Source: Streptomyces sp. NBC_01314
GTDB lineage: Bacteria > Actinomycetota > Actinomycetes > Streptomycetales > Streptomycetaceae
Assembly (NCBI RefSeq): GCF_041435215.1
Contig: NZ_CP108394.1
Location: 2,604,001-2,668,000, forward strand
Direction of reading: 5' to 3'
DNA: 64,000 nucleotides
Part shown: positions 6,706 through 50,745 of the stretch, one piece after another
Position numbering within the stretch: position 1 is the first letter of the stretch
How the letters are laid out: each line of letters begins with the position of its first letter
Position numbers and translations under genes: made by a program
Notes under the pieces: model-generated
What the model saw: only the letters and a program-made list of their open reading frames with translations
What the model was told of the DNA's origin: nothing
Database searches by the model: none

Positions 6706-7055
6706 CCTCCCCGGGACCGGCTGACGAGCCCCTCCCGGGACCTGGGCCCTGTCGTCACATTCCCGTCCGTCACTCTTCGGCGGACCAGGTGCGCGCAGCG
6801 ACCTTGCGGCTCCAGCCTAGGCTCAAACCCCGGCCCGGGTCATCGAGGGTTTTCCCTCCCCAACTCGCCTAGGGGGATCCCCCCTTGGGAGAGGATCACT
6901 CCGGCTCCTATTTTTTGTGACGTGCCGCACGCCAGGGCACACAGACCGGCCCGTCGCCCCCGCTCGGCTCCCCCGAGCGGGGGCGGCACGGCAGGTTCTG
7001 TGCACCAACCCCCCACCCGCGCGTCCCCCACCGGCAACTCCCCATGAGGAGCACC
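6706..7055. other. Intergenic region upstream of the secreted protease gene
   Basis: About 350 bp with no gene that I can support. It holds two GC palindromes: GGGGGATCCCCC at 6872-6883 and CCCCCGAGCGGGGG at 6970-6983. The second differs by one base from the core of the operator candidate at 2682-2697. A ribosome site (GAGGAG, 7046-7051) ends the region. Confidence 0.6.
6970..6983. promoter_or_regulatory. Palindrome resembling the 2682 operator
   Basis: CCCCCG-AG-CGGGGG lies about 75 bp upstream of the trypsin start. It matches the CCCCCG-AA-CGGGGG core found beside the GAF-LuxR gene except for one base of the spacer. It could be an operator for a LuxR-type protein or a transcription-stopping hairpin; sequence alone does not decide. 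Confidence 0.35.
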
Positions 7056-7853
7056 ATGTTCGGGTTCAACCGCGTCAAGAAGTCGATGATCGCCGCCGTG
7101 GCCACCGCTGCCGCCGCCGCGGCCGCGCTGCTCACCGCCCCCGGCGCCGTCGCCGCTCCCCAGCCCATCGTGGGTGGTACGACCACCACCGCGAGCGCGT
7201 ACCCGTACGTCATGCAGATCACGAACGCCTCGCAGAGCCAGTTCTGTGGTGGCACCCTCGTGTCTCCGACCAAGGTGATCACCGCCGCTCACTGCATGGT
7301 CGGCAGAACCACCTCCAACACCCGTGTCGTCGGCGGCCGTACCTACCGCAACGGCACGAACGGCACCGTCAGCACGCTCAGCAAGATCTGGATCCACCCG
7401 AGCTACAACAGCTCCACCATGACCAGCGACGTGGCCGTGCTGACCCTCGCGGTCGCTCAGCCGTACACCACGGCGTCCTACGTCAGCGCCTCGCAGACGG
7501 GCGTCTACGCGGCCGGCACCACCGCCCGCATCATCGGCTGGGGCACCACCTCCTCGGGCGGCTCCTCCTCCAACCAGCTGCGCACCGCGACCGTGCCGGT
7601 CGTGGCCGACTCGGTCTGCGGCAGCTCCAGCGCGTACGGCTCCGAGTTCGTCGCCAGCTCCATGGTCTGCGCCGGTTTCTCTTCCGGCGGCGTCGACACC
7701 TGCCAGGGCGACAGCGGCGGTCCCCTGATGATCGGGGGCGTCCTGGCAGGCATAGTTTCCTGGGGTTACGGCTGCGCCGACGCGCAGTACCCCGGGATCT
7801 ACACCCGGCTGACCACCTTCTCCAACACGGTGGCCGCCCAGATCGCCTCGTAG
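7056..7853 (+). CDS. Secreted trypsin-like serine protease (S1 family)
   Basis: I chose the ATG at 7056 (265 aa) because GAGGAG lies 4 nt upstream; the ATG at 7044 overlaps that ribosome site. A signal peptide (RVKK, an Ala-rich core, then PGAVAAP) is followed almost at once by the mature trypsin N-terminus IVGGTTTT. The catalytic triad is visible: His79 in TAAHCM, Asp125 in TSDVAVL and Ser220 in CQGDSGGPL. Asp about six residues before the catalytic Ser (GVDTCQGDSGG) fits trypsin-like specificity for Arg/Lys. Length and cysteine pattern match Streptomyces trypsins (SprT-like). It acts outside the cell, and the short propeptide implies activation by another protease. Confidence 0.95.
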   Translation: MFGFNRVKKSMIAAVATAAAAAAALLTAPGAVAAPQPIVGGTTTTASAYPYVMQITNASQSQFCGGTLVSPTKVITAAHCMVGRTTSNTRVVGGRTYRNGTNGTVSTLSKIWIHPSYNSSTMTSDVAVLTLAVAQPYTTASYVSASQTGVYAAGTTARIIGWGTTSSGGSSSNQLRTATVPVVADSVCGSSSAYGSEFVASSMVCAGFSSGGVDTCQGDSGGPLMIGGVLAGIVSWGYGCADAQYPGIYTRLTTFSNTVAAQIAS

Positions 7854-7907
7854 CCGAGGCCCGGGCGCGAGCCGACAGACTCCTGAGGTACTCCCTCAGG
7901 AACTGCC

Positions 7908-7951
7908 AGGGGGTGCCGCGAACCTGCCACGAGCGGTTCGCGGCGCCCCCT
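7908..7951. terminator. Bidirectional terminator between converging genes
   Basis: Arms of 17 nt (AGGGGGTGCCGCGAACC and GGTTCGCGGCGCCCCCT) pair with a single G-U step around a 10-nt loop. It sits between the trypsin stop (7853) and the stop of the opposing gene (7979), so it can serve both. Confidence 0.85.
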
Positions 7952-7978
7952 CTCCAATGTCCGGGAGGCGTACGGAGG

Positions 7979-9184
7979 TTACGACGGGGCCACGGTGCCG
8001 AACCGGATGTCGTACGCGCCGTCCCCGTGCAGCGTCGTGAGGGTGCGCTCCGCCTCCGTCACCAGGTCGGCCCGCTGCCGCTGGGTGAGGCGGCCGAAGG
8101 GTTCGAGGGTGAGGACGTCGGCGTCGAGCTTCCAGATGCCGGCCAGGAAGCCGTCCACGAGGAACGTGCGATGGGCCTGATTCCCTTGCCAGGAACGGCC
8201 CTTGAGGTCCGGCGGGACCACGCGGGAGCGGTCGGCGTGGGAGAGGAGCAGGTTGTCGAACTCGGGGAGCAGCCGGGGCGGGGCCGGGGTCTCCGGGTCG
8301 GGGCGAGGCGCGTCCGGGAGGTCGAAGAGTTCGGTGCCGCTGTCGTCGCGGAAGACGAGCAGCTCCGGGCGCAGCCGCTCGAACGCCTCGCGCAGGCGGG
8401 TCAGTCCGGCCCAGGTCTGCATGTCCTTGACGGAGGCGGGCCCGAACGCGGCGAGATAGCGCCGGATGACGGTTTCGGGTGCCGGTGCCTCTTCGGCGGG
8501 GCGGCCGAGCCAGTGCTCCGCGGTGGTCAGGGCGACCTGTCCGCTCCTCCCCCACAGGCCGCGCGGGGTGACCTGGACGAGCGGAAGCCGGCAGCGCGCG
8601 GCGACACCGAGGGCGAACGGGTCGGCGTCGGGCCACTCCACGATCAACGCCTCACGCAACTGCTTCAGGGTGCGCGGCTCGGCCTCGACGAGTTCCCGCG
8701 CGATCGCCTCCAGCCGGTCCAGATCGACCCCGGCCAGCCCTTTGCGGAACAGGTTCAGCTCCCGCTCCCGGGCCGGCTGCACCAACGGCCGCAGGGCGAG
8801 GCAGTCCTCGGCGGTGTGCGTGTGGATCGTGGACCGCATGGTCACGATGCGTACGACGTCCCGGTCGGCCATCAGCGCCGACAACTGCTCGGGCGCGAAG
8901 CCGTCCAGCCGGGCGGCGAGCGCGTAGTACGGCGGCCGTACGTTCTGCGCCTGGAGCCCGAGGAGGTGCGTGATGGCGCCGTGGGCGGACATGGGCGGGG
9001 GCACCGAGTCGGCGGCCTTGGCGGAGGGGGTCTTGGCGGAGAGTGCCTTCACGGAGGGGGCTTTGGCGGGGGCGGCCTCGGCGGAAACGGGCGCCCGGTG
9101 CAGCAGGAGCTGGCGGGCCAGGGTCGCGCGGTTGAGGGCCTGGGTGCCGAGCCGGGGAGCGGTCTGGTCCGCCTTGTTCGTCAT
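7979..9184 (-). CDS. Winged-helix DNA-binding domain protein (AlkZ/YcaQ-like)
   Basis: A 401-residue protein from the ATG at 9184 (MTNKADQTAP). It matches the winged-helix family that includes AlkZ/YcaQ DNA glycosylases: LLGLQAQNVRPPYYALAARL, RSTIHTHTAEDC and HRTFLVDGFLAGIWK are typical segments. Family members unhook interstrand crosslinks or alkylated bases; many Streptomyces copies are uncharacterised. A low-complexity insert at residues ~35-60 has repeated AKAPS/AKTPS units between the N-terminal helix and the domain, absent from the members I know. The frame stays open ~250 nt upstream of this ATG, but that part does not look like family sequence. Confidence 0.8.
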   Translation of the reverse strand: MTNKADQTAPRLGTQALNRATLARQLLLHRAPVSAEAAPAKAPSVKALSAKTPSAKAADSVPPPMSAHGAITHLLGLQAQNVRPPYYALAARLDGFAPEQLSALMADRDVVRIVTMRSTIHTHTAEDCLALRPLVQPARERELNLFRKGLAGVDLDRLEAIARELVEAEPRTLKQLREALIVEWPDADPFALGVAARCRLPLVQVTPRGLWGRSGQVALTTAEHWLGRPAEEAPAPETVIRRYLAAFGPASVKDMQTWAGLTRLREAFERLRPELLVFRDDSGTELFDLPDAPRPDPETPAPPRLLPEFDNLLLSHADRSRVVPPDLKGRSWQGNQAHRTFLVDGFLAGIWKLDADVLTLEPFGRLTQRQRADLVTEAERTLTTLHGDGAYDIRFGTVAPS

Positions 9185-9435
9185 GGTGCGCACGCTAGCG
9201 GGGGTTGCGGACAGGTTCTGTCCGCGACAGTCCTGATGCGGTCCGCGGTCCGCCGCCGAGAGCGGAGAGCGCGACGGCGCGTCCCGTCCGCGATTGCCTC
9301 GCTCCCCCGCCCCCCTGCCCGACCCACTTCCGGTCCGGCCGGACATCGAATTCCCCGGCTCCCTCCTTTCCCACCCCTCCCCTCTCCTCTCCTCTCCTCC
9401 CCTTACGTATACGCGCAACTCGGGAGGCATCCACG

Positions 9436-9975
9436 ATGGCCGACCGGCTGTGGGTATTCGACCAAGTCAGCGGGCTGAGGACCGTCCCGGCGGATAGAAG
9501 GCCGCCGGGACAGCCGGGACGAGGAGCGGTTCGTCTACGAAAGGGTCAGCGCCCGCGGCGAAATACCGGGCGGCGAAGGACGTCTTCGCCGGCAGATCCG
9601 GAAACTGTAGGAACTCCGGGCGGCAGACGCCGAGGACCTTCGCCAACTGCGGGAGGGCAACGAAGCCCTTGTCGGAGCACTTCACTCGGCGATGACGGAG
9701 AATCAGGCTCGACGCTGCTGGAGCTGCCCGATCCGCAGCCGCCCGCGCCGCCGGACCCGAAACTGCCGGCCCAATCGGCCTACCAGCAGATCATGGCGCT
9801 GTTCGCCTCGGCCGACGCGCCGCTGCGGGCGCGGCGGGTGTGCGAGGCGACGGACATGAAGATCGCGCCCAACAACATCAACAACACCCGCTTGTAGCTC
9901 AAGCGGCTGACCGAGCGCGGAATCCCGGTCGAGACCGAGCAGAGCTTGTTCGCCCAGCCGCGGCCGCAGCCGTAG
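9436..9975 (+). pseudogene. Broken gene for a coiled-coil/winged-helix small protein
   Basis: Three reading frames are needed. 9436- starts MADRLWVFDQVS. A second frame has RLRRQIRKL, a stop at 9608, then ELRAADAEDLRQLREGNEAL. A third (from ~9720) has AYQQIMALFASADAPLRARR and NNINNTRL, then a TAG at 9895 where a lysine is expected, then LKRLTERGIPVETEQSLF to a stop at 9975. At least two frameshifts and two stops make it a pseudogene. The C-terminal half matches the remnant at 22198-22490, so both derive from one family of roughly 180 residues with a charged helical N-terminus and a winged helix. The function is not known to me. Confidence 0.7.
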
Positions 9976-27743: not shown

Positions 27744-28032
27744 CGATCGCCCGGCCGCATCGACCACAGCGGCAAGCGGAGCGGGCGCCGCCCCACGCGA
27801 GTCCGAGACGGCGTCTGCCCCGATGGGCCACCGGCCGCCGCCCCTCATCGTTCGGGGTCGGCGGTCGGGTTGGCGTGGGTCAGGGTCTTCGACTGTTGGT
27901 GGTTTTGTTGCGGTTTCCTGTGTGAATCGGGTGGTGGCACAGGGGTGCGTGTCTTTGTGTGATGGTCGGTCGTTAGGTCGATCGGATACGGGGTGTGCCC
28001 GGTGCGGAGCCGTGTGGGAGGGGGTGGTGGGT

Positions 28033-30168
28033 GTGGGCCGGTTGATGGCGACAGCTCCATGTACCGCCTTCCGTGGCATGGTCGAGGGCAGTGATGAGCA
28101 GGTCGGGGCACGTCTGCTGCATCAGCGGGTGTCGTTCCTGACCGGGCTGTGCGGGGATCTCACCCGGCAGCTGGTGGCTGCCCGGTGGGACGTGGACTGT
28201 CTGGATGTGCTGGCCGCCGGGGTCGACGGGCAGGGCGAGCGGTTGCCGTCCAAGGGGTGGATGGCGCTGCGGCGTCTGGGCTGGGCGCAGAGCGCCGCGG
28301 CGGCTGGAGGCGTGTATGTGTCGGACCGGGTGCGGCGGGCGGCGGAGGAGTACGCGGCCCGCATGCTGCGGCTGGCCCTGCACCGGCGCACCCTGATCGC
28401 GGCGATCCTGGCCGCCTGGCCCGCCGATCCGCGCCGGCGCACCGCGGCGGAGTGGACGGCGCTGCGGGCCGCGCTGCCCGCAGGTGCCGGCAACGCCGAG
28501 ATCCGTAACCGTACCCGGCAGGTGAGCGGCTATGTGCGCGAGCACGGGCGGCTTCCGGTGGGGTTGTGTGAGCTGGAGGACCCGCCCGAGGTGGCGGGGC
28601 TGGTGGTGCTGGCGGCGATGGACCGTCAGCAGGTCACCTTGGTCCGGGTGGACGAGGTCACGGCCCGGCTGCGGGTGAAACTCCCGCTGTGCGCGGCACC
28701 GGCCTCGGGGCGGGACTGGGCCTGGCATGTGATCGACATCCGGCTGCCGGGCACCGTGCCACCTGATGCGGTGCTGCACACCCCGCCCCTGCGCCCCACG
28801 CGTGGTGGGCGGATCGCGGTGGACCTTCCCCATTCTCGCCCCGCCCCCACTGCCTCAGCTTCCGGGCACCGGGTGGCGGTGGGGTTCGACTGGGGCGTCA
28901 ACACCCTGCTCACCGGCACGGTGGGCCGCCTGTCCGGCCAGGGCGAGACGGCGCGGGTGGTCACCTACGGCCGCCCCCTGATCTTCGACGCCACCGCGGT
29001 CAGTGCGAAACTGCACCGGCTGCGCGGCCACCGCGAACACCTCGCCGCCAAACGCGACCACTACCAGCACCTCGCCGACGGATACGGTTCCCCGCACCTG
29101 GCCCGGGCCGAACTCCTGGACCGGGCGGCCGTGCTTCAGGTGGAGCATCAGCGGGTGTGCGCGCGGATCCGGCACCTCAACCAGGCACTGGCCTGGTCGG
29201 CGGCCCGCTGGGCCATCGACCAGAGCACCGCACTCGGCGCCACCGTCATCTACCTGGAAGACCTCACTACCCTGGAAGCCCGCGGGCGCAGGCGCGGTAA
29301 CGCCCGGTTGTCCGGGCAGGTCCGCGGCACCGTCGCCGACGCGATCCGGCACCTGGCCACCAAGGCGGGGATCGCGGTGGTCACCGTCCCGGCCCGCGGC
29401 ACCTCCGCCCAATGCCCCGGATGCCTGCACCCACTCGGCCACCACCCCGCCCCCGACCGGCTCGAGGAGCGGGGCCGGAGCTGGGCCCACTGCGCCCGCT
29501 GTGGGCTGTCCATGGACCGTGACCATGCCGCAGCCCGGCGGATCGTCGCACGCGGCCTGCTCGCCCAGTCCCACACCGTCACCGAGCGCGCCACCGGCAC
29601 CCGCACCATCCGCACCACCGTGGAAGGCACCGTCCGCCCGGTACGCCGACCGAAGAAGACCACCCGCCGCCTGCGCCGCGCCCGCCAGGCACATACGGCC
29701 CCACCCCGGCCGCGCGGGCCGAAGACCACCCCCGGCAAGAGCCGCCCCACCCCCAGCAGACCGATCGGCCCCCACCGGCGGCGCGCCCCACGCGCCGCCG
29801 GACAACCCGTCACAGCCCCGGCCTTGGCCGCGTCTGTGGCGGTGAAGACTTCCCGCCGTATGCCCGAAGTGCGTACGGTTCCCGCCACCACCCCCACCGG
29901 GGTGGTCCAGCGTCCGGCGGGGCATGACACACAGACACCAGCCGCACTTCCCGGGCCGGAGTCAGGTCATGGAGTACCCGCCCCACCCCACCCGGAGCCT
30001 CCTCCGGCAGGGCGGGAGCGGCTCTCCCGCGGAACCTGTCGGCGGCGTACCCATGCCGCCGAGCGGACCGGCTTCCACCACCTGAACGCCACCGAAGTCC
30101 ACACCCTCACCCCGAGGTTCGGACCCCACCCCGGCGACAGACGGCCACACCGCGCCCGAAAAGCCTGA
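28033..30168 (+). CDS. tnpB: Very large TnpB-like RNA-guided nuclease (RuvC fold, zinc ribbon)
   Basis: About 711 residues if it starts at the GTG at 28033, 8 nt after GGAGGGGG; the ATG at 28045 is an alternative. RuvC-like catalytic residues are all present: Asp286 in VGFDWGVNT, Glu409 in YLEDLTT and Asp497 in DRDHAAAR. The zinc ribbon has CPGC (461/464) and CARC (487/490). The N-terminal part before RuvC-I is ~285 residues, longer than in standard ~400-residue TnpB, and a ~200-residue Arg/Pro-rich tail follows the last motif. No tnpA is adjacent. Downstream 30215-30254 has two small hairpins like those of a TnpB right end/omega RNA. TnpB proteins cut DNA guided by an RNA from the element's right end. 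Confidence 0.82.
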   Translation: MGRLMATAPCTAFRGMVEGSDEQVGARLLHQRVSFLTGLCGDLTRQLVAARWDVDCLDVLAAGVDGQGERLPSKGWMALRRLGWAQSAAAAGGVYVSDRVRRAAEEYAARMLRLALHRRTLIAAILAAWPADPRRRTAAEWTALRAALPAGAGNAEIRNRTRQVSGYVREHGRLPVGLCELEDPPEVAGLVVLAAMDRQQVTLVRVDEVTARLRVKLPLCAAPASGRDWAWHVIDIRLPGTVPPDAVLHTPPLRPTRGGRIAVDLPHSRPAPTASASGHRVAVGFDWGVNTLLTGTVGRLSGQGETARVVTYGRPLIFDATAVSAKLHRLRGHREHLAAKRDHYQHLADGYGSPHLARAELLDRAAVLQVEHQRVCARIRHLNQALAWSAARWAIDQSTALGATVIYLEDLTTLEARGRRRGNARLSGQVRGTVADAIRHLATKAGIAVVTVPARGTSAQCPGCLHPLGHHPAPDRLEERGRSWAHCARCGLSMDRDHAAARRIVARGLLAQSHTVTERATGTRTIRTTVEGTVRPVRRPKKTTRRLRRARQAHTAPPRPRGPKTTPGKSRPTPSRPIGPHRRRAPRAAGQPVTAPALAASVAVKTSRRMPEVRTVPATTPTGVVQRPAGHDTQTPAALPGPESGHGVPAPPHPEPPPAGRERLSRGTCRRRTHAAERTGFHHLNATEVHTLTPRFGPHPGDRRPHRARKA

Positions 30169-30214
30169 AACCCACAGGCACACACAGAGTTCCAGAGACG
30201 CTGCTCTACCTTCT

Positions 30215-30254
30215 GGACCGGGCTGGTCCTCCCGTTCGTAGGGTGAGGACACCC
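30215..30254 (+). ncRNA. Candidate right-end/omega-RNA hairpins of the large TnpB
   Basis: GGACC-GGGCT-GGTCC (30215-30229) and GGGTG-AGGA-CACCC (30241-30254) lie 47-86 nt after the TnpB stop, directly before the junction with host regulator sequence (~30262-30270). TnpB guide RNAs come from this position. This is a structural guess with no expression evidence. Confidence 0.35.
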
Positions 30255-30267
30255 AGGGGTATCGGGT

Positions 30268-30444
30268 GATCCGGCCGTCGGGGAACTCGTCCTGGACTGG
30301 GACACCCTCACCGCCAACACCGATCCCGACCAGCATCTGACCGTGTGGACCGCCGAGCCCGGCTCCCCCACCCACGAGCGGCTGAGCATCCTCGCCTCCT
30401 GGGCCACCGACCAGAACCTGCCAGCGTCCCGGCCGCTCACCTGA
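30268..30444 (+). pseudogene. 3' fragment of an XRE/MmyB-like regulator gene
   Basis: 58 codons reading PAVGELVLDWDTLTANTDPD, then HLTVWTAEPGSPTHERL and ILASWATDQNLPAS to a TGA. It is nearly identical to the C-terminus of the intact regulator at 40866-41747. The rest of the gene is absent; the large TnpB gene lies immediately upstream. Confidence 0.85.
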
Positions 30445-30887
30445 CGCCGTCAGAGACGGCTGAGGTCGGGCGCGCCCACGGGCTTGGGCGGTCGCCGCTG
30501 GTGCAACACGGCTGACGACTGGGACCGCGCCGACCGCGGCCCTTGTCCCGCCGTGCCCGGGTGCGACCCGCCCCGCGGTCGGTGCGGGGTGTCAACCCCG
30601 CCGCGCGCGCGGTGAAAGCCGCGGGAGGCGACCGGACACGCCCTCAAGGAAATCCGATGCAAGTCCTACTCGGAGATGAAGAGTTTTCTCCTATGGCCCG
30701 TATTCGCGGTCAGGAAAACCAAGGGGGGACAAAACTCTCCCAGTCACAGCCGTTACTCGTGATGCAAAACTTCCCGCATCGACGGCCGCAGCAAGACGTG
30801 CGGTCGCCAGGTATGCGGCGACGACGATCTCATCTCCTGTCGTGCCGCTCCGTATGGCCGGTCCGTCCGTGATGCGAAGGCATACAA
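30445..30887. other. Upstream region of the molybdenum hydroxylase operon
   Basis: 443 bp without a supported gene. The right half (~30650-30780) is clearly less GC-rich, as expected of a promoter region. It holds inverted 7-mers GAGTTTT (30681-30687) and AAAACTC (30731-30737). No known riboswitch (for example Moco) is evident by eye. Confidence 0.5.
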
Positions 30888-39681: not shown

Positions 39682-40696
39682 AGGGCTTGAGGAGGGCCTT
39701 GATGGCGCGGCGCTCGTCCATCGCCTTGTAGCCTTCGGCGACCTGTTCCAGGGGCAGGGTGAGGTCGAAGACCTTGCCCGGGTTGATCCGGCCGGACAGG
39801 ACGCGGTCGATCAGGTCGGGCAGGAAGCGGCGGACGGGTGCCGGACCGCCGCGCAGGCCGACGTGGGAGAAGAACAGCTCCTGGCCGTCGATGGCCACGT
39901 CGTGCGGGACACCGACGAAACCGACGTTGCCGCCGGGCCGGGCGGAACTCAGAGCCTGCCGCATCGCCTCGGAGGTGCCGACGCACTCCAGCACGGAGTC
40001 GGCGCCGAGGCCGCCGGTGAGGTCCTTGACGCGGGCGATGCCTTCGTCGCCGCGTTCGCTGACGATGTCGGTGGCGCCGAACCCCAGGGCGAGCTTCTGC
40101 CGGGTCTCATGGCGGCTCATGGCGATGATCCGCTCGGCGCCGAGTTCCTTCGCGGCGATCACACCGCACAGACCGACCGCTCCGTCGCCGACGACGACGG
40201 CGGTGGAGCCGGGCTTCACCTCGGCGGCGAGAGCGGCGTACCAGCCGGTGCCCATCACGTCGGAGACGGCGAGCAGGCCCGGCACGAACGCACCGTCCGG
40301 GTGCTCGTCGGTGGCGACGAGGGTGCCGTGCGCGTTGGGGATGCGCACGTAGTCGGCCTGACAGGTGCTCATGAACTCGCGGTGCAGACAGGAGGACTGC
40401 CAGCCGTTCAGGCAGTTCACGCAGGTGTTGTCCGACGTGGCGAAGGAGCCGACCACGAACTGGCCCGGTCTGACGTCGGCGACCTCGCTGCCGACCTCCT
40501 CGACGATGCCGACGTACTCGTGCCCCATCGGGTGCGGGTCGCCGATGGGTTCCGCGCCGCGGTAGGGCCACAGGTCCGAGCCGCACACGCAGGTGGCGAC
40601 CGTACGGATGATCGCGTCGGTCGGCTGGATGATCTTCGGGTCGTCGAGGTCTTCGAAGCGCACGTCGCCGGGGGCGTGGATGACTGCTCCGTGCAT
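39680..40696 (-). CDS. Zinc-dependent alcohol dehydrogenase (threonine-dehydrogenase-like)
   Basis: 338 residues of the medium-chain dehydrogenase family. Catalytic zinc ligands lie in CVCGSDLW and GHEYVG; a structural-zinc cysteine cluster is present (CVNCLNGWQSSC). The NAD(P)-binding segment is VVVGDGAVGLCGV. Sequence is close to the zinc-dependent dehydrogenases widespread in actinomycetes, with substrates ranging from alcohols to formaldehyde adducts. It is divergent from the XRE regulator across a gap containing direct repeats, so that regulator probably controls it. Confidence 0.93.
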   Translation of the reverse strand: MHGAVIHAPGDVRFEDLDDPKIIQPTDAIIRTVATCVCGSDLWPYRGAEPIGDPHPMGHEYVGIVEEVGSEVADVRPGQFVVGSFATSDNTCVNCLNGWQSSCLHREFMSTCQADYVRIPNAHGTLVATDEHPDGAFVPGLLAVSDVMGTGWYAALAAEVKPGSTAVVVGDGAVGLCGVIAAKELGAERIIAMSRHETRQKLALGFGATDIVSERGDEGIARVKDLTGGLGADSVLECVGTSEAMRQALSSARPGGNVGFVGVPHDVAIDGQELFFSHVGLRGGPAPVRRFLPDLIDRVLSGRINPGKVFDLTLPLEQVAEGYKAMDERRAIKALLKP

Positions 40697-40802
40697 GGGG
40701 CATTTCCTTCGGTGCGAGTGTCGATGTGCGCAGCCGGAGTCAGGAACGGCTGCTCACGGTCGAGCCTCACACTTGAGGGCAGGCGGGAAAAGCGGAGAAA
40801 TT

Positions 40803-40828
40803 CATCCTGGGAAGGGAACATCCTGGGA
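40803..40828. promoter_or_regulatory. Direct repeat CATCCTGGGA x2
   Basis: Copies at 40803-40812 and 40819-40828, 16 nt apart, lie between the divergent ADH and XRE genes, ~40 bp from the XRE start. Spacing near 1.5 helical turns fits dimer binding. The region around it is AT-richer. Confidence 0.45.
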
Positions 40829-40865
40829 GTGTTTTCTCCCCCCTTCGACGGGTGGGATCGGTGTC

Positions 40866-41747
40866 ATGCTGGGCAGCATGACCGCCAACGTCCCCCTCAA
40901 TGAGCTGGGAGAATTCCTCAAGAAGCGCCGCTCCGAGCTGAGCCCGCGAACGGTCGGTCTCCCCGAGACCGACAGGGCCCGCCGGGTGGAGGGACTTCGC
41001 CGCGAGGAGGTCGCCCAGCTCGCCAGCATCAGCACCGACTACTACACCCGCCTCGAACAGGGCCGCATGCAGGCATCGGCACCCGTGTTGGACGTCCTCG
41101 CCCGCGTGCTCCATTTGGACGACGACGAGCGCGGCTACCTCTTCCAGCTCGCGGGCAGGACCAGCACGCGCGCCCGGCGACGTGGTCGGCAGAAGGTCCA
41201 GCCGCAGCTGCAGCGGGTCCTGGACGACCTCACCGCCACTCCCGCCGTCGTGCAGGGCCGGCGCGGGGACATCCTGGCCTGGAACGCGCTGGCCGCCGCC
41301 CTGGTCACCGACTTCTCCCGCATCCCGGAGAAGCACCGCAACTACCCGCGGATCATCTTCACCGATCCCGCCATGCGCACCCTGTACGCCGACTGGGAGA
41401 CCTCGGCACACATCTCCGTGGCCCAACTGCGGATGGAGGCCGCGAAGTATCCCGAGGACCCTCGCCTGATCGAGCTGGTCGGTGAACTCTCCATGCGTGA
41501 CCAGCAGTTCGCCCGCTGGTGGGGCGATCACCACGTCGCCGCCCGCACCGTGGGCACGAAAACCCTCAACCACCCCGCCGTCGGCGAACTCGTCCTCGAC
41601 TGGGACACCCTCACCGCCAACACCGACCCCGACCAGCACCTCACCGTCTGGACCGCCGCCCCCGGCTCCCCCACCCACGAACGGCTCCGCATACTGGCCT
41701 CCTGGGCCGCCGACCAGGATCTGCCGGCCTCCTCGCCCCTCGGCTGA
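40866..41747 (+). CDS. XRE-family regulator with MmyB-like ligand domain
   Basis: 293 residues from the ATG at 40866; ATG 40878 is possible. The N-terminal helix-turn-helix is typical (LGEFLKKRRSELSP, RRVEGLRREEVAQLASISTD, YYTRLEQGR). The C-terminal half is an MmyB-like domain (LAWNALAAALVTDFS, NYPRIIFTDP, DWDTLTANTDPDQHLTVWTA). These regulators usually control one divergent oxidoreductase or transporter gene; here the zinc ADH. The last ~58 codons are duplicated as a fragment at 30268-30444. Confidence 0.93.
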   Translation: MLGSMTANVPLNELGEFLKKRRSELSPRTVGLPETDRARRVEGLRREEVAQLASISTDYYTRLEQGRMQASAPVLDVLARVLHLDDDERGYLFQLAGRTSTRARRRGRQKVQPQLQRVLDDLTATPAVVQGRRGDILAWNALAAALVTDFSRIPEKHRNYPRIIFTDPAMRTLYADWETSAHISVAQLRMEAAKYPEDPRLIELVGELSMRDQQFARWWGDHHVAARTVGTKTLNHPAVGELVLDWDTLTANTDPDQHLTVWTAAPGSPTHERLRILASWAADQDLPASSPLG

Positions 41748-48729: not shown

Positions 48730-48750
48730 CTGTGCCGCTACGCGGCACAG
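48730..48750 (-). ncRNA. Candidate omega-RNA hairpin at the 3' end of tnpB
   Basis: CTGTGCCGC-TAC-GCGGCACAG is a perfect 9-bp stem overlapping the tnpB stop codon (48738-48740). Together with the 48688 hairpin it fits the scaffold of a TnpB guide RNA, whose guide would then be the flanking sequence below ~48685. Confidence 0.45.
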
Positions 48751-49961
48751 TCTTCGGAGGGGAATCCGTGGCTTCCTGCTTCGTCGCGCTGTGCCGGGAC
48801 GAGTCCTGGTCTGACCTGCGCTCCACAGGCTGTCACCGCCAGTCCGGCGGCCGTTTTCACGTTCTTCGCGGCATTGTGGTCCCGGTCGTGGACCGCACCG
48901 CAGGCGGCACAGGTCCAGGTCCGGATGTGCAGGGGCTTGGGGCCGTCCTTCGCCCCGCACGCCGAACAGACCTGGCTGGTCGGTGTGAACCGGCCGATTT
49001 TCACCAGGGTCCGGCCGTACCTGACCGCCTTGTACTCCAGCATGTGCACGAACTGCGCCCGGCCCGCGTCATGCACACTCTTGGCCAGCCTGGTGCGCGC
49101 CAGTCCTTTGACCGCCAGGTCCTCCACACCGATCGCTTGGTTGTCGCGGATCAGCTTCGTGGAGAGCTGGTGGTGGAACTCGCGGCGGGCGTCGGCCACG
49201 TGCGCGTGGGCGCGGGCGGCCTTCAGGCGGGCCTTCTCTCGGTTGTTCGATCCCTTCTGTTTGCGGGACAGCTCGCGCTGGGCGCGCTTGAGTTTCTTCT
49301 CGGCACGGCGCAGAAACCGAGGGCTGTCGATCTTCGTGCCGTCGTCGAGGACCGCGAAGTGGGTGAGACCCAGGTCGATGCCGACGCTCCGGTCGGTGTC
49401 GGGCATGCGGGCGGCGTCGGCGTGCGGGTCGGTGTCGACGACGAAGGAGGCGAAGTACCGCCCGGCCGCGTCCTTGATCACCGTGACCGAGGAGGGCTGT
49501 GCGGGCAGGGTCCGTGACCACTTCACTGCCACCGCACCGATCTTGGGAAGGTTCAGCCTCCCGGAGGCGGTGACCGACCAGCGGGCATTGGCCGTGAAGC
49601 GGATCGACTGCCGGTTGTCCTTGCGGGACTTGAACCGGGGCGCACCACTCTTCACGCCCTTGCGCTCGCCCTTGAGGGAGGCGAAGAAGTTCTTGTAGGC
49701 GGCCTCCGCATCGCGCAGGGACTGCTGGAGCACGACGGCGGACACCTCGCCCGGCCACGACCGTGCGTCCGTCTGCTTCGCCTCGGTGATCAGCTTCCTG
49801 GACAGCTCGCCGGCCTTCGGGAACGCAGTCCCTGCCACCCGGGCGTCCTCGCGGGCGCGCACCGCGTCGTTGAAGACGACGCGGGCGCACCCGAACGCCC
49901 TCGCCAACGCGATGCGTTGGATGGCGTTCGGGTACAACCTGAAGGCGTACCGAAGCTGCAT
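48738..49961 (-). CDS. tnpB: TnpB, RNA-guided endonuclease of the IS200/IS605 element
   Basis: 407 residues from the ATG at 49961 (ATG 49967 possible), normal length for TnpB. The N-terminal segment MQLRYAFRLYPNAIQRIAL is typical. Catalytic RuvC residues are intact: Asp in VGIDLGLTHFAV, Glu in GVEDLAVKGL and Asp in DRDHNAAKN. The zinc ribbon has CSACG and CAACG. It should bind the RNA made from its own 3' end and cleave matching DNA next to the element's target motif. Its partner tnpA is inactivated, so the copy is probably immobile but may still be an active nuclease. Confidence 0.92.
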   Translation of the reverse strand: MQLRYAFRLYPNAIQRIALARAFGCARVVFNDAVRAREDARVAGTAFPKAGELSRKLITEAKQTDARSWPGEVSAVVLQQSLRDAEAAYKNFFASLKGERKGVKSGAPRFKSRKDNRQSIRFTANARWSVTASGRLNLPKIGAVAVKWSRTLPAQPSSVTVIKDAAGRYFASFVVDTDPHADAARMPDTDRSVGIDLGLTHFAVLDDGTKIDSPRFLRRAEKKLKRAQRELSRKQKGSNNREKARLKAARAHAHVADARREFHHQLSTKLIRDNQAIGVEDLAVKGLARTRLAKSVHDAGRAQFVHMLEYKAVRYGRTLVKIGRFTPTSQVCSACGAKDGPKPLHIRTWTCAACGAVHDRDHNAAKNVKTAAGLAVTACGAQVRPGLVPAQRDEAGSHGFPSEDCAA

Positions 49962-49986
49962 GACCATCACGCTACATACTTGGGTT

Positions 49987-50432
49987 ATGGGCGAGATCCA
50001 GAAGATCAGAACTGGCCGGCACTGTGTTTTCGTGATGCATGTCCACTTGGTCTTCGTGACCAAGTTCCGGCACAAGGTGTTCACGGATGTTCACCTGACG
50101 CGGATGGAGGAGATCATGCGGTCGGTGTGCGCGGACTTCGAGTGCGAGCTGATGGAGTTCAACGGCGAGGACAACCACGTCCACCTTCTGGTGAACTTCC
50201 CGCCCAAGGTCACCGTCACCAAACTCGTCAACTCCCTCAAGGGCGTCTCCTCCCGCCGACTGCGCCTGGGGGCACCTCCCGGCCGAAGGCTGGGGGAGAA
50301 TTCCCCGACCTGGTACGCCACTACTGGCGCGCCAACAAACTCTGGTCCGGCTCCTACTTCGCCGGAACCGTCGGCGGCGCCCCGCTCACCGTGGTCAGGC
50401 AGTACATCGAACGGCAGAACCGGCCCGTGTGA
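49987..50432 (+). pseudogene. tnpA: tnpA (Y1 HUH transposase) split by a 33-bp insertion
   Basis: The frame from 49987 encodes the N-terminal part: VMHVHLVFVTKFRHKVF and the HUH motif DNHVHLLV, then LVNSLKGVSSRRLR. The expected continuation EFPDLVRHYWRANKLWSGSY and VVRQYIERQN, with the catalytic Tyr, is in another frame, ending at 50432. Between them lies the palindromic insertion at 50266-50298. As read, the protein lacks the catalytic tyrosine. Confidence 0.88.
50266..50298. repeat. 33-bp palindromic insertion inside tnpA
   Basis: It begins CTGGGGGCACCTCCCGG and ends GGCTGGGGGAG, with self-complementary parts (CTCCC/GGGAG and GGCC/GGCT). It replaces about 4 nt of the normal tnpA sequence, a net +29, which shifts the frame. 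It resembles short GC-rich interspersed palindromes that I recall from Streptomyces genomes. Confidence 0.6.
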
Positions 50433-50745
50433 GCATCACCGGGCTCCACCGGGACCGGCCTCGCGGCGCTCCGCGCCAGGAGTGAGGAACACGTCGTCCG
50501 GCTCCGCCGGACAGGAACCTGCGACGCTCCGCGTCGCAGCCATCAGATTCGCTTCACCACCGGGCTGAAGCCCGATGCACTGCGAATGAATCCCGGTAGC
50601 GCCGTTGATCCGTCACAGGCGGGGCGGCACTCATGATCTGCCTCCCTCCGCCTCGGCGATGAAACTCCCACCGGTCGACACTTCACGGCGCGCATACGGG
50701 CATCACCGTTCACGTGCCACGCTTGTCCGAACGGAAGGATGGTCT
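50433..50745. other. IS left flank and sulP upstream region
   Basis: 313 bp. A perfect hairpin CTGCGACGC-TCC-GCGTCGCAG (50519-50539) and the end palindrome at 50561-50575 belong to the IS element. The rest (50590-50745) holds no gene; GGAAGGATGG just before 50746 is the sulP ribosome site. Confidence 0.6.
50561..50575. repeat. IS left-end palindrome
   Basis: CGGGCTGAAGCCCGA, identical to 48691-48705 at the other end of the element. Confidence 0.75.

Follow-up and report, generated by a model that had tools for sequence, protein, structure and literature searches.

Why does a TnpB-like nuclease gene of nearly twice the usual size lie beside a truncated XRE regulator gene in Streptomyces sp. 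NBC_01314, and where does the mobile unit that carries it begin and end? The gene lies in a stretch of 64,000 nucleotides (hereafter the window; G000:C1:2604001-2668000 of the 11.3 Mb genome), for which a first-pass annotation had proposed a mobile element of the TnpB type whose nuclease is intact and whose right end carries a structured RNA. That proposal is supported by the element ends, by nuclease residues invariant in 81 of 81 aligned sequences and by covariation in the candidate RNA, and we consider it very likely that the window holds a tnpB-only insertion sequence (IS) of the IS607 type, with a type V nuclease, a right-end RNA and AGGCT as its target. This reading draws on the sharp ends of the element, its conserved and covarying right end, near-identical copies, and the AGGCT that stands in the empty sites of relatives and of one further copy in the same genome.

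The boundaries of the element follow from its copies. The genome holds four full copies, the one in the window included, and one 5' fragment; in each full copy homology starts at AGGGTCTTC and stops at GAGACGCT. Identity to the window element is 90% for L010 (L numbers are our labels for loci), whose reading frame stops after about 132 codons, 81% for L011 and L012, and 98% for the 5' fragment in L015. L011 and L012 are 99.96% identical to each other across exactly 2302 bp and have unrelated flanks, which points to recent movement, and the short right flanks of 27 copies are all different. No target-site duplication is visible among the full copies, and empty sites hold a single 5-mer and no duplicated flank.

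The reading frame codes for 711 residues, in agreement with the outsized protein of about 711 residues described at first pass, and the RuvC triad and zinc ribbon reported there are indeed intact: D286, E409, D497 and C461/C464/C487/C490 show no variation across the alignment, which comprises the window protein together with 44 relatives that share 71-85% identity with it and 36 more that share 43-46%. The only Pfam domain above cut-off is the TNB zinc-ribbon domain (PF07282; residues 436-504, scoring 44.4 bits where 26.3 is required), which matches at 31 places in the whole genome. Structure prediction, one of the checks suggested with the annotation, returned a TnpB/Cas12f-type fold. Protein searches (E ≤ 0.001) yielded at least 990 relatives of the window protein and at least 1190 for a sister family; part of the candidates were scored, and among the matches listed (120 per family) most are named zinc ribbon domain-containing protein, transposase or hypothetical protein in public sources. 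A match to residues 1-556 was found in seven of 72,556 plasmid records, three at 60-80% identity and four lower, three of the latter from Mycolicibacterium at 31-32%.

The last 200 nucleotides (nt) or so of the element look like a structured RNA whose 3' end coincides with the right end of the element. The 3'-terminal 201 nt were aligned for 25 copies out of 27 (L012 was dropped as identical to L011, and L144 as a fragment). In the resulting consensus fold the terminal GAGACGCT forms a helix with GGCTCTC about 170-180 nt upstream, inside tnpB, and a second helix follows; 97.5% of the cells in these helices are paired. Changes on both sides affect 5 pairs (shuffle mean 2.7; reached by 5 of 500 shuffles) and 20 cells (mean 6.5; reached by none of 500), the covariation score is 0.059 versus 0.034 in shuffles (again reached by none of 500), and structures slid by 1-3 columns show no such both-sided changes. 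The weight of the covariation falls on two pairs of the second helix, 31-199 and 32-198. Rfam gave no family match in 27800-30600 except one sub-threshold match on the other strand. Differences at four-fold degenerate sites among 14 full-length genes amount to 0.19-0.39 over residues 1-600 and drop in the Arg/Pro-rich tail to 0.08 (601-630), 0.12 (661-690) and 0.08 (691-720); amino-acid differences in these three blocks (0.13-0.17) stay inside the range of the other blocks (0.08-0.43). Such conservation fits a tail whose DNA is also constrained in part by an RNA, which may start as far upstream as about 29830, structural support being confined to 30020-30202. With its 3' end at 30202, the guide would therefore start at 30203 and not after about 30262, where it had been placed at first pass; of the two small hairpins then noted after the stop codon, one (30163-30179) falls inside the right end and the second, judged by eye, beyond the element. 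The first 16 nt from 30203 have no other match in the genome at 0 or 1 mismatch, and at up to 2 mismatches they have 7 matches, including the site itself, versus 27 for a reversed control. A solo right end consisting of the last 58 nt or so of an element lies at L144:4969-5026, just after a regulator-like gene (by eye); no left end was found at that locus, and as the partner strand of the RNA end helix is missing, it is probably a fragment.

The target was read from empty sites. For 19 copies the two flanks were fused without any intervening sequence and used as queries against 392 Streptomyces genomes; 12 further loci were added and 12 more own-family copies were compared with the collected loci, bringing the total to 31 copies. 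At least one aligned empty site was obtained for 11 of these, in 49 copy-relative pairs with a 5-mer between the flanks, and the 5-mer is AGGCT in 33 pairs. AGGCT occurs in at least one relative for nine of the 11 copies (L012, L075, L078, L146, L189, L195, L201, L216, L223), in 14 of 14 relatives in the case of L078, and L012 is the own-genome copy for which relatives display such an empty site. Since the left end of the element begins with AGG and the right end finishes with GCT, insertion splits AGGCT. AGGCT directly 5' of the guide is the natural prediction for the target-adjacent motif (TAM), because most empty sites read AGGCT, the scaffold of ISXfa1 includes the nucleotide after the right end, and the TAMs measured for IS607 TnpB proteins are AGGAG and GAGGG.

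Other descriptions of the target were tried and abandoned. An initial reading of 19 left and 27 right flanks, then of 35 and 51 with the sister family, showed no strong motif beyond the ends; this was misleading, AGGCT being absorbed into both ends and visible in empty sites only. A hairpin or terminator as target was suggested by four empty sites palindromic by eye, and folding 19 joined sites showed no enrichment (mean -19.0 kcal/mol at the junction versus -18.6 to -23.0 at other offsets within 300 nt). Insertion inside genes was considered by listing the frames across the join for 19 copies, and of ten inspected by eye most do not resemble interrupted genes. For L011, 30 of 61 genomes (own included) match a flank, and several relatives have both flanks close together with a spacer whose divergence prevents the junction from being located. 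L201 and L075, which belong to different families, seem to have inserted at one and the same conserved site in separate genomes, each on the opposite strand to the other (empty-site loci L231, L234, L235, L237, L243, L246 and L260).

The assignment to the IS607 type comes from relatives. A genome scan found 21 further loci in Streptomyces and Actinacidiphila, 18 with the right end and 16 with the left end (at most 4 mismatches), several others being cut by contig ends; the right-end pattern is present in 7 of 295 Streptomyces genomes, own included. Between left end and tnpB, L083, L087 and L095 carry a serine recombinase gene with an N-terminal helix-turn-helix, and the L087 product (TnpA) matches Pfam Resolvase (76.3 bits) and HTH_17 and passes the NCBIfam model transpos_IS607 (NF033518; 118.5 bits against a cut-off of 110). 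The absence of a tnpA gene nearby, remarked upon at first pass, was borne out by tblastn with this TnpA, which found nothing better than E 0.33 in the window. The same query matched six of 30 distinct own-family loci (L083, L087, L090, L095, L142, L146); the other 24, some of them cut by contig ends, gave no match. The gene is frameshifted in at least three of the six (L083, L095, L142); in five it lies between left end and tnpB, and in L090, where the left end was not found, upstream of tnpB. Matches also occur in six of 54 sister-family loci (L179, L183, L200; partial in L210, L211, L217); these 54 were selected by the sister right-end pattern, and many are fragments or chance hits that contain just parts of tnpB or lack it. 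Left ends were compared in 24 of the 54 and accepted in 16. As relatives carry an IS607-type tnpA and the window copy has none, the latter is, by sequence comparison, a tnpB-only derivative within an IS607-type family. A fixed motif just outside the left end, a feature of the IS200/IS605 type, was not strong in any position of 35 left flanks (maximum 0.46 bits, small-sample corrected). Copies with a tnpA occupy more than one region of a tree of 24 own-family copies, several supports of which are low, so that no loss count is given. Two arrangements in the same genome involve the sister family: in L015 the window-type 5' fragment (7002-7684) directly adjoins a sister-family element (7768-9947), and sister-family copies lie at mirrored positions near both chromosome ends (G000:C1:41111 and 11286500), consistent with terminal inverted repeats.

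Taken together, these data suggest how the element may persist. The nuclease would bind an RNA made from its own 3' end, and the 16-20 nt past the right end would act as guide; the complex would then recognise AGGCT followed by the right-flank sequence in an element-free allele and cut it, and repair from the element-bearing copy would restore the element. The integrated copy would be spared, its junction reading ..GACGCT instead of AGGCT. Movement to new sites would most likely depend on an IS607-type TnpA supplied in trans, either at present or formerly, because no close TnpA was found in this genome. The oversized streptomycete TnpB clade might instead spread to new AGGCT sites without a TnpA of its own, the enlarged nuclease and its AGGCT-reading RNA mobilising the element by cutting target or donor and by repair copying, with TnpB partly taking over the transposase role; we regard this as improbable.

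A number of observations weigh against the IS607-type reading or parts of it. The near-identity of L011 and L012 could also come from gene conversion between two older copies. The window protein misses the NCBIfam guided_TnpB cut-off (52.6 bits against 100, residues 274-507 aligned to a profile of length 389), so that the suggested check against profile hidden Markov models was positive for PF07282 and negative for this model; the miss lowers the label that the protein can be given and leaves the claim on mechanism untouched. As to the RNA, further pair types lend the fold no support (9 versus a shuffle mean of 9.6; 481 of 500 shuffles reach this), 23 of 43 pairs are invariant, the aligned sequences are related to one another, and the alignment scored is the one that gave the structure; RNAalifold on 31 sister-family sequences did not recover the end helix, a matching helix being visible by eye in some, and residues 631-660 are without low four-fold differences (0.22). 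The nearest TnpA relatives in the same genome are no more than 33-37% identical.

The target site has exceptions of its own. No relative reads AGGCT for two of the 11 copies: those of L200 read AGGCC in two of three cases, one being unclear (AGGCC also occurs in one of six for L223), and the four of L084 read AGGGT, AGGTT and, twice, an unclear 5-mer. L201 and L075 have seven relatives each, of which three and four, respectively, show AGCCT, the form that AGGCT takes on the other strand. In 18 of 19 own-family copies the left end has AGGG (AGGC in L075), where the target has AGGC, and the IS607 rule of a matching dinucleotide is thus not plainly obeyed; GC or CT as the exchanged pair fits most sister-family copies (AGGCT..GACGCT), the own family having AGGG..CGCT in 18 of 19. 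As target of the window copy, AGGCT is taken from the relatives and L012 and not read directly at this locus. A comparison of the locus in related strains had been recommended; other copies do fix both ends, and in the 392 genomes no listed match covers most of both window flanks (the query included the presumed AGGCT, and a few matches reach some bases across). The nearest left-flank relative of the window copy reads AGGCG at the expected place.

The first-pass annotation had the gene run directly into the XRE sequence and pictured a TnpB element that had entered the regulator gene or recombined with it, with a guide derived from the regulator and potentially aimed at its intact twin or at related genes. 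The XRE 3' fragment is real and shares 86% identity across 175 nt with the final part of an intact gene about 10 kb away. The XRE homology, however, starts about 30269-30271, 67-69 nt beyond the right end (with the joined-flank query, XRE matches set in no earlier than query position 305 and mostly at 306-309, equivalent to window 30269-30272). The 66 nt in between resemble the end of an IS110-family element: 63 of them match, at 76% identity, a stretch that directly precedes an IS110-type transposase frame at another place in this genome, and the unit recurs in five other genomic places at 85-89% identity, each followed by a full or truncated IS110-type frame (by eye). Because this IS110-like end separates the element from the XRE fragment, the TnpB element did not break the gene, which was thus apparently cut by another element or a deletion at the IS110-like end, the TnpB element adjoining that remnant. 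The fragment is unrelated to the TnpB boundary, a circumstance that the annotation itself had named as speaking against its proposal. The predicted guide derives from the IS110-like end, not from XRE, and its first 16 nt have no second genomic match at 0 or 1 mismatch. We therefore hold the first-pass picture, with the element in or recombined with the XRE gene and its guide directed at the twin, to be extremely unlikely. Five relatives of this right-hand unit are preceded by AGGCG, AGGCA, AGGTG, AAGCG and AAGTG; AGGCG, AGGCA or AGGTG thus stands before the IS110-like end in three of five (L294-L298), and IS110-type and TnpB elements may favour similar sites.

Loss of mobility would be another way to account for a tnpB that stands alone. 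The nuclease might be domesticated, as the annotation had also allowed, into a TldR-like regulator or a host nuclease, a notion to which the lack of tnpA in the window copy and of a tnpA match in most own-family loci (some cut by contig ends) lends itself; the invariant nuclease residues, the intact ends of the window copy, the differing right flanks and a 99.96% identical pair with different flanks speak against it, and we judge it quite improbable. A decaying fossil, in which tnpB persists by chance without tnpA, would explain the interrupted frames of some copies (L010, and L077, L078 and L079 to judge from short open frames). Against decay, the ratio of amino-acid to four-fold differences is 0.30-0.70 in seven of eight blocks of residues 271-510 (1.23 in the eighth), the RNA displays compensatory changes, and L011 and L012 are again near-identical; this explanation is very unlikely.

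Table 1. Features of the TnpB element and its surroundings (positions in the window)
Feature	Position	Strand	Basis
Whole tnpB-only element, 2321 bp	27882..30202	+	Similarity to the three other full copies breaks off abruptly at either end
Left end, AGGGTCTTCGACTGTTGG	27882..27899	+	Same motif at left boundary of relatives
tnpB, 711 aa from GTG (putative start codon)	28033..30168	+	Open reading frame, family alignment
RuvC Asp286 codon	28888..28890	+	Invariant in 81/81 aligned sequences
RuvC Glu409 codon	29257..29259	+	Invariant in 81/81 aligned sequences
Zinc ribbon, C461/C464/C487/C490	29413..29502	+	Pfam match, invariant in 81/81
RuvC Asp497 codon	29521..29523	+	Invariant in 81/81 aligned sequences
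C-terminal tail, residues 562-711; 3' part overlaps RNA scaffold	29716..30165	+	Predicted local distance difference test (pLDDT) <50
Putative RNA scaffold; helices 30020-30026/30195-30202 and 30031-30038/30185-30193; hairpin 30163-30179	30020..30202	+	Extent by structure
Right end, GAGACGCT	30195..30202	+	Identical in 25/25 aligned copies
Predicted guide, first 20 nt past right end	30203..30222	+	RNA structure and covariation
Sequence resembling IS110-family element end, outside TnpB element	30203..30268	+	
3' fragment of XRE (HTH_31/MLTR_LBD) gene, outside element	30269..30445	+	
Intact XRE regulator gene (twin)	40689..41747	+	HTH_31 and MLTR_LBD domains

Elsewhere in the window, a TnpB of ordinary size (448 aa; 48738-50084, minus strand) lies beside an oppositely oriented frame (about 49786-50568, plus strand) which by eye resembles an IS200-type Y1 tnpA; the pair would be an unrelated IS605-like element.

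The analysis delineates a large group of TnpB-like nucleases of almost double the common size and provides it with element ends, together with a predicted guide start and a predicted recognition motif, AGGCT. One part of the element may serve as protein tail and structured RNA at once, and the data prompt the question by what means tnpB-only elements continue to move. Among the papers listed in searches of the open-licence PubMed Central (PMC) literature, no title or opening of an abstract was found to deal with an oversized TnpB group of this kind or with an AGGCT TAM.

Several known systems resemble the window element in part. The predicted fold aligns with ISDra2 TnpB over residues 2-514 and with AsCas12f over residues 3-533, at 11-13% identity; compared with both, the window protein would have a larger N-terminal half and a low-confidence tail of about 150 residues. 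The ISFba1-type IS607 TnpB proteins, whose right-end element RNA derives from RAGATH-18, share with it the RuvC triad, a right-end RNA and an IS607 tnpA in relatives (PMC11061315). They average 390 aa versus 711 for the window protein and use a comparably short G-rich motif, AGGAG, where AGGCT is predicted here; the measured IS607 TnpB TAMs were AGGAG in 18 of 22 strains and GAGGG in four of 22 (PMC11061315). Unlike the RAGATH-18 case, the candidate RNA of the window element lies largely inside the tnpB frame and has no above-threshold Rfam match. The relatives' TnpA is a serine recombinase, and the L087 protein falls under the IS607 model NF033518; as with IS607 TnpA (PMC6188088), no target-site duplication is seen here either, and the window copy differs in lacking the gene, as do, by tblastn, 24 of the 30 own-family loci searched. 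A parallel for the right end is ISXfa1, whose RNA scaffold finishes with a fixed nucleotide, located just past the right end, that the target supplies (PMC10711439). In like manner the final GCT of the predicted window scaffold matches the right part of the AGGCT target, with the difference that ISXfa1 exchanges a GG dinucleotide (PMC10711439), whereas the window family splits AGGCT between its two ends.
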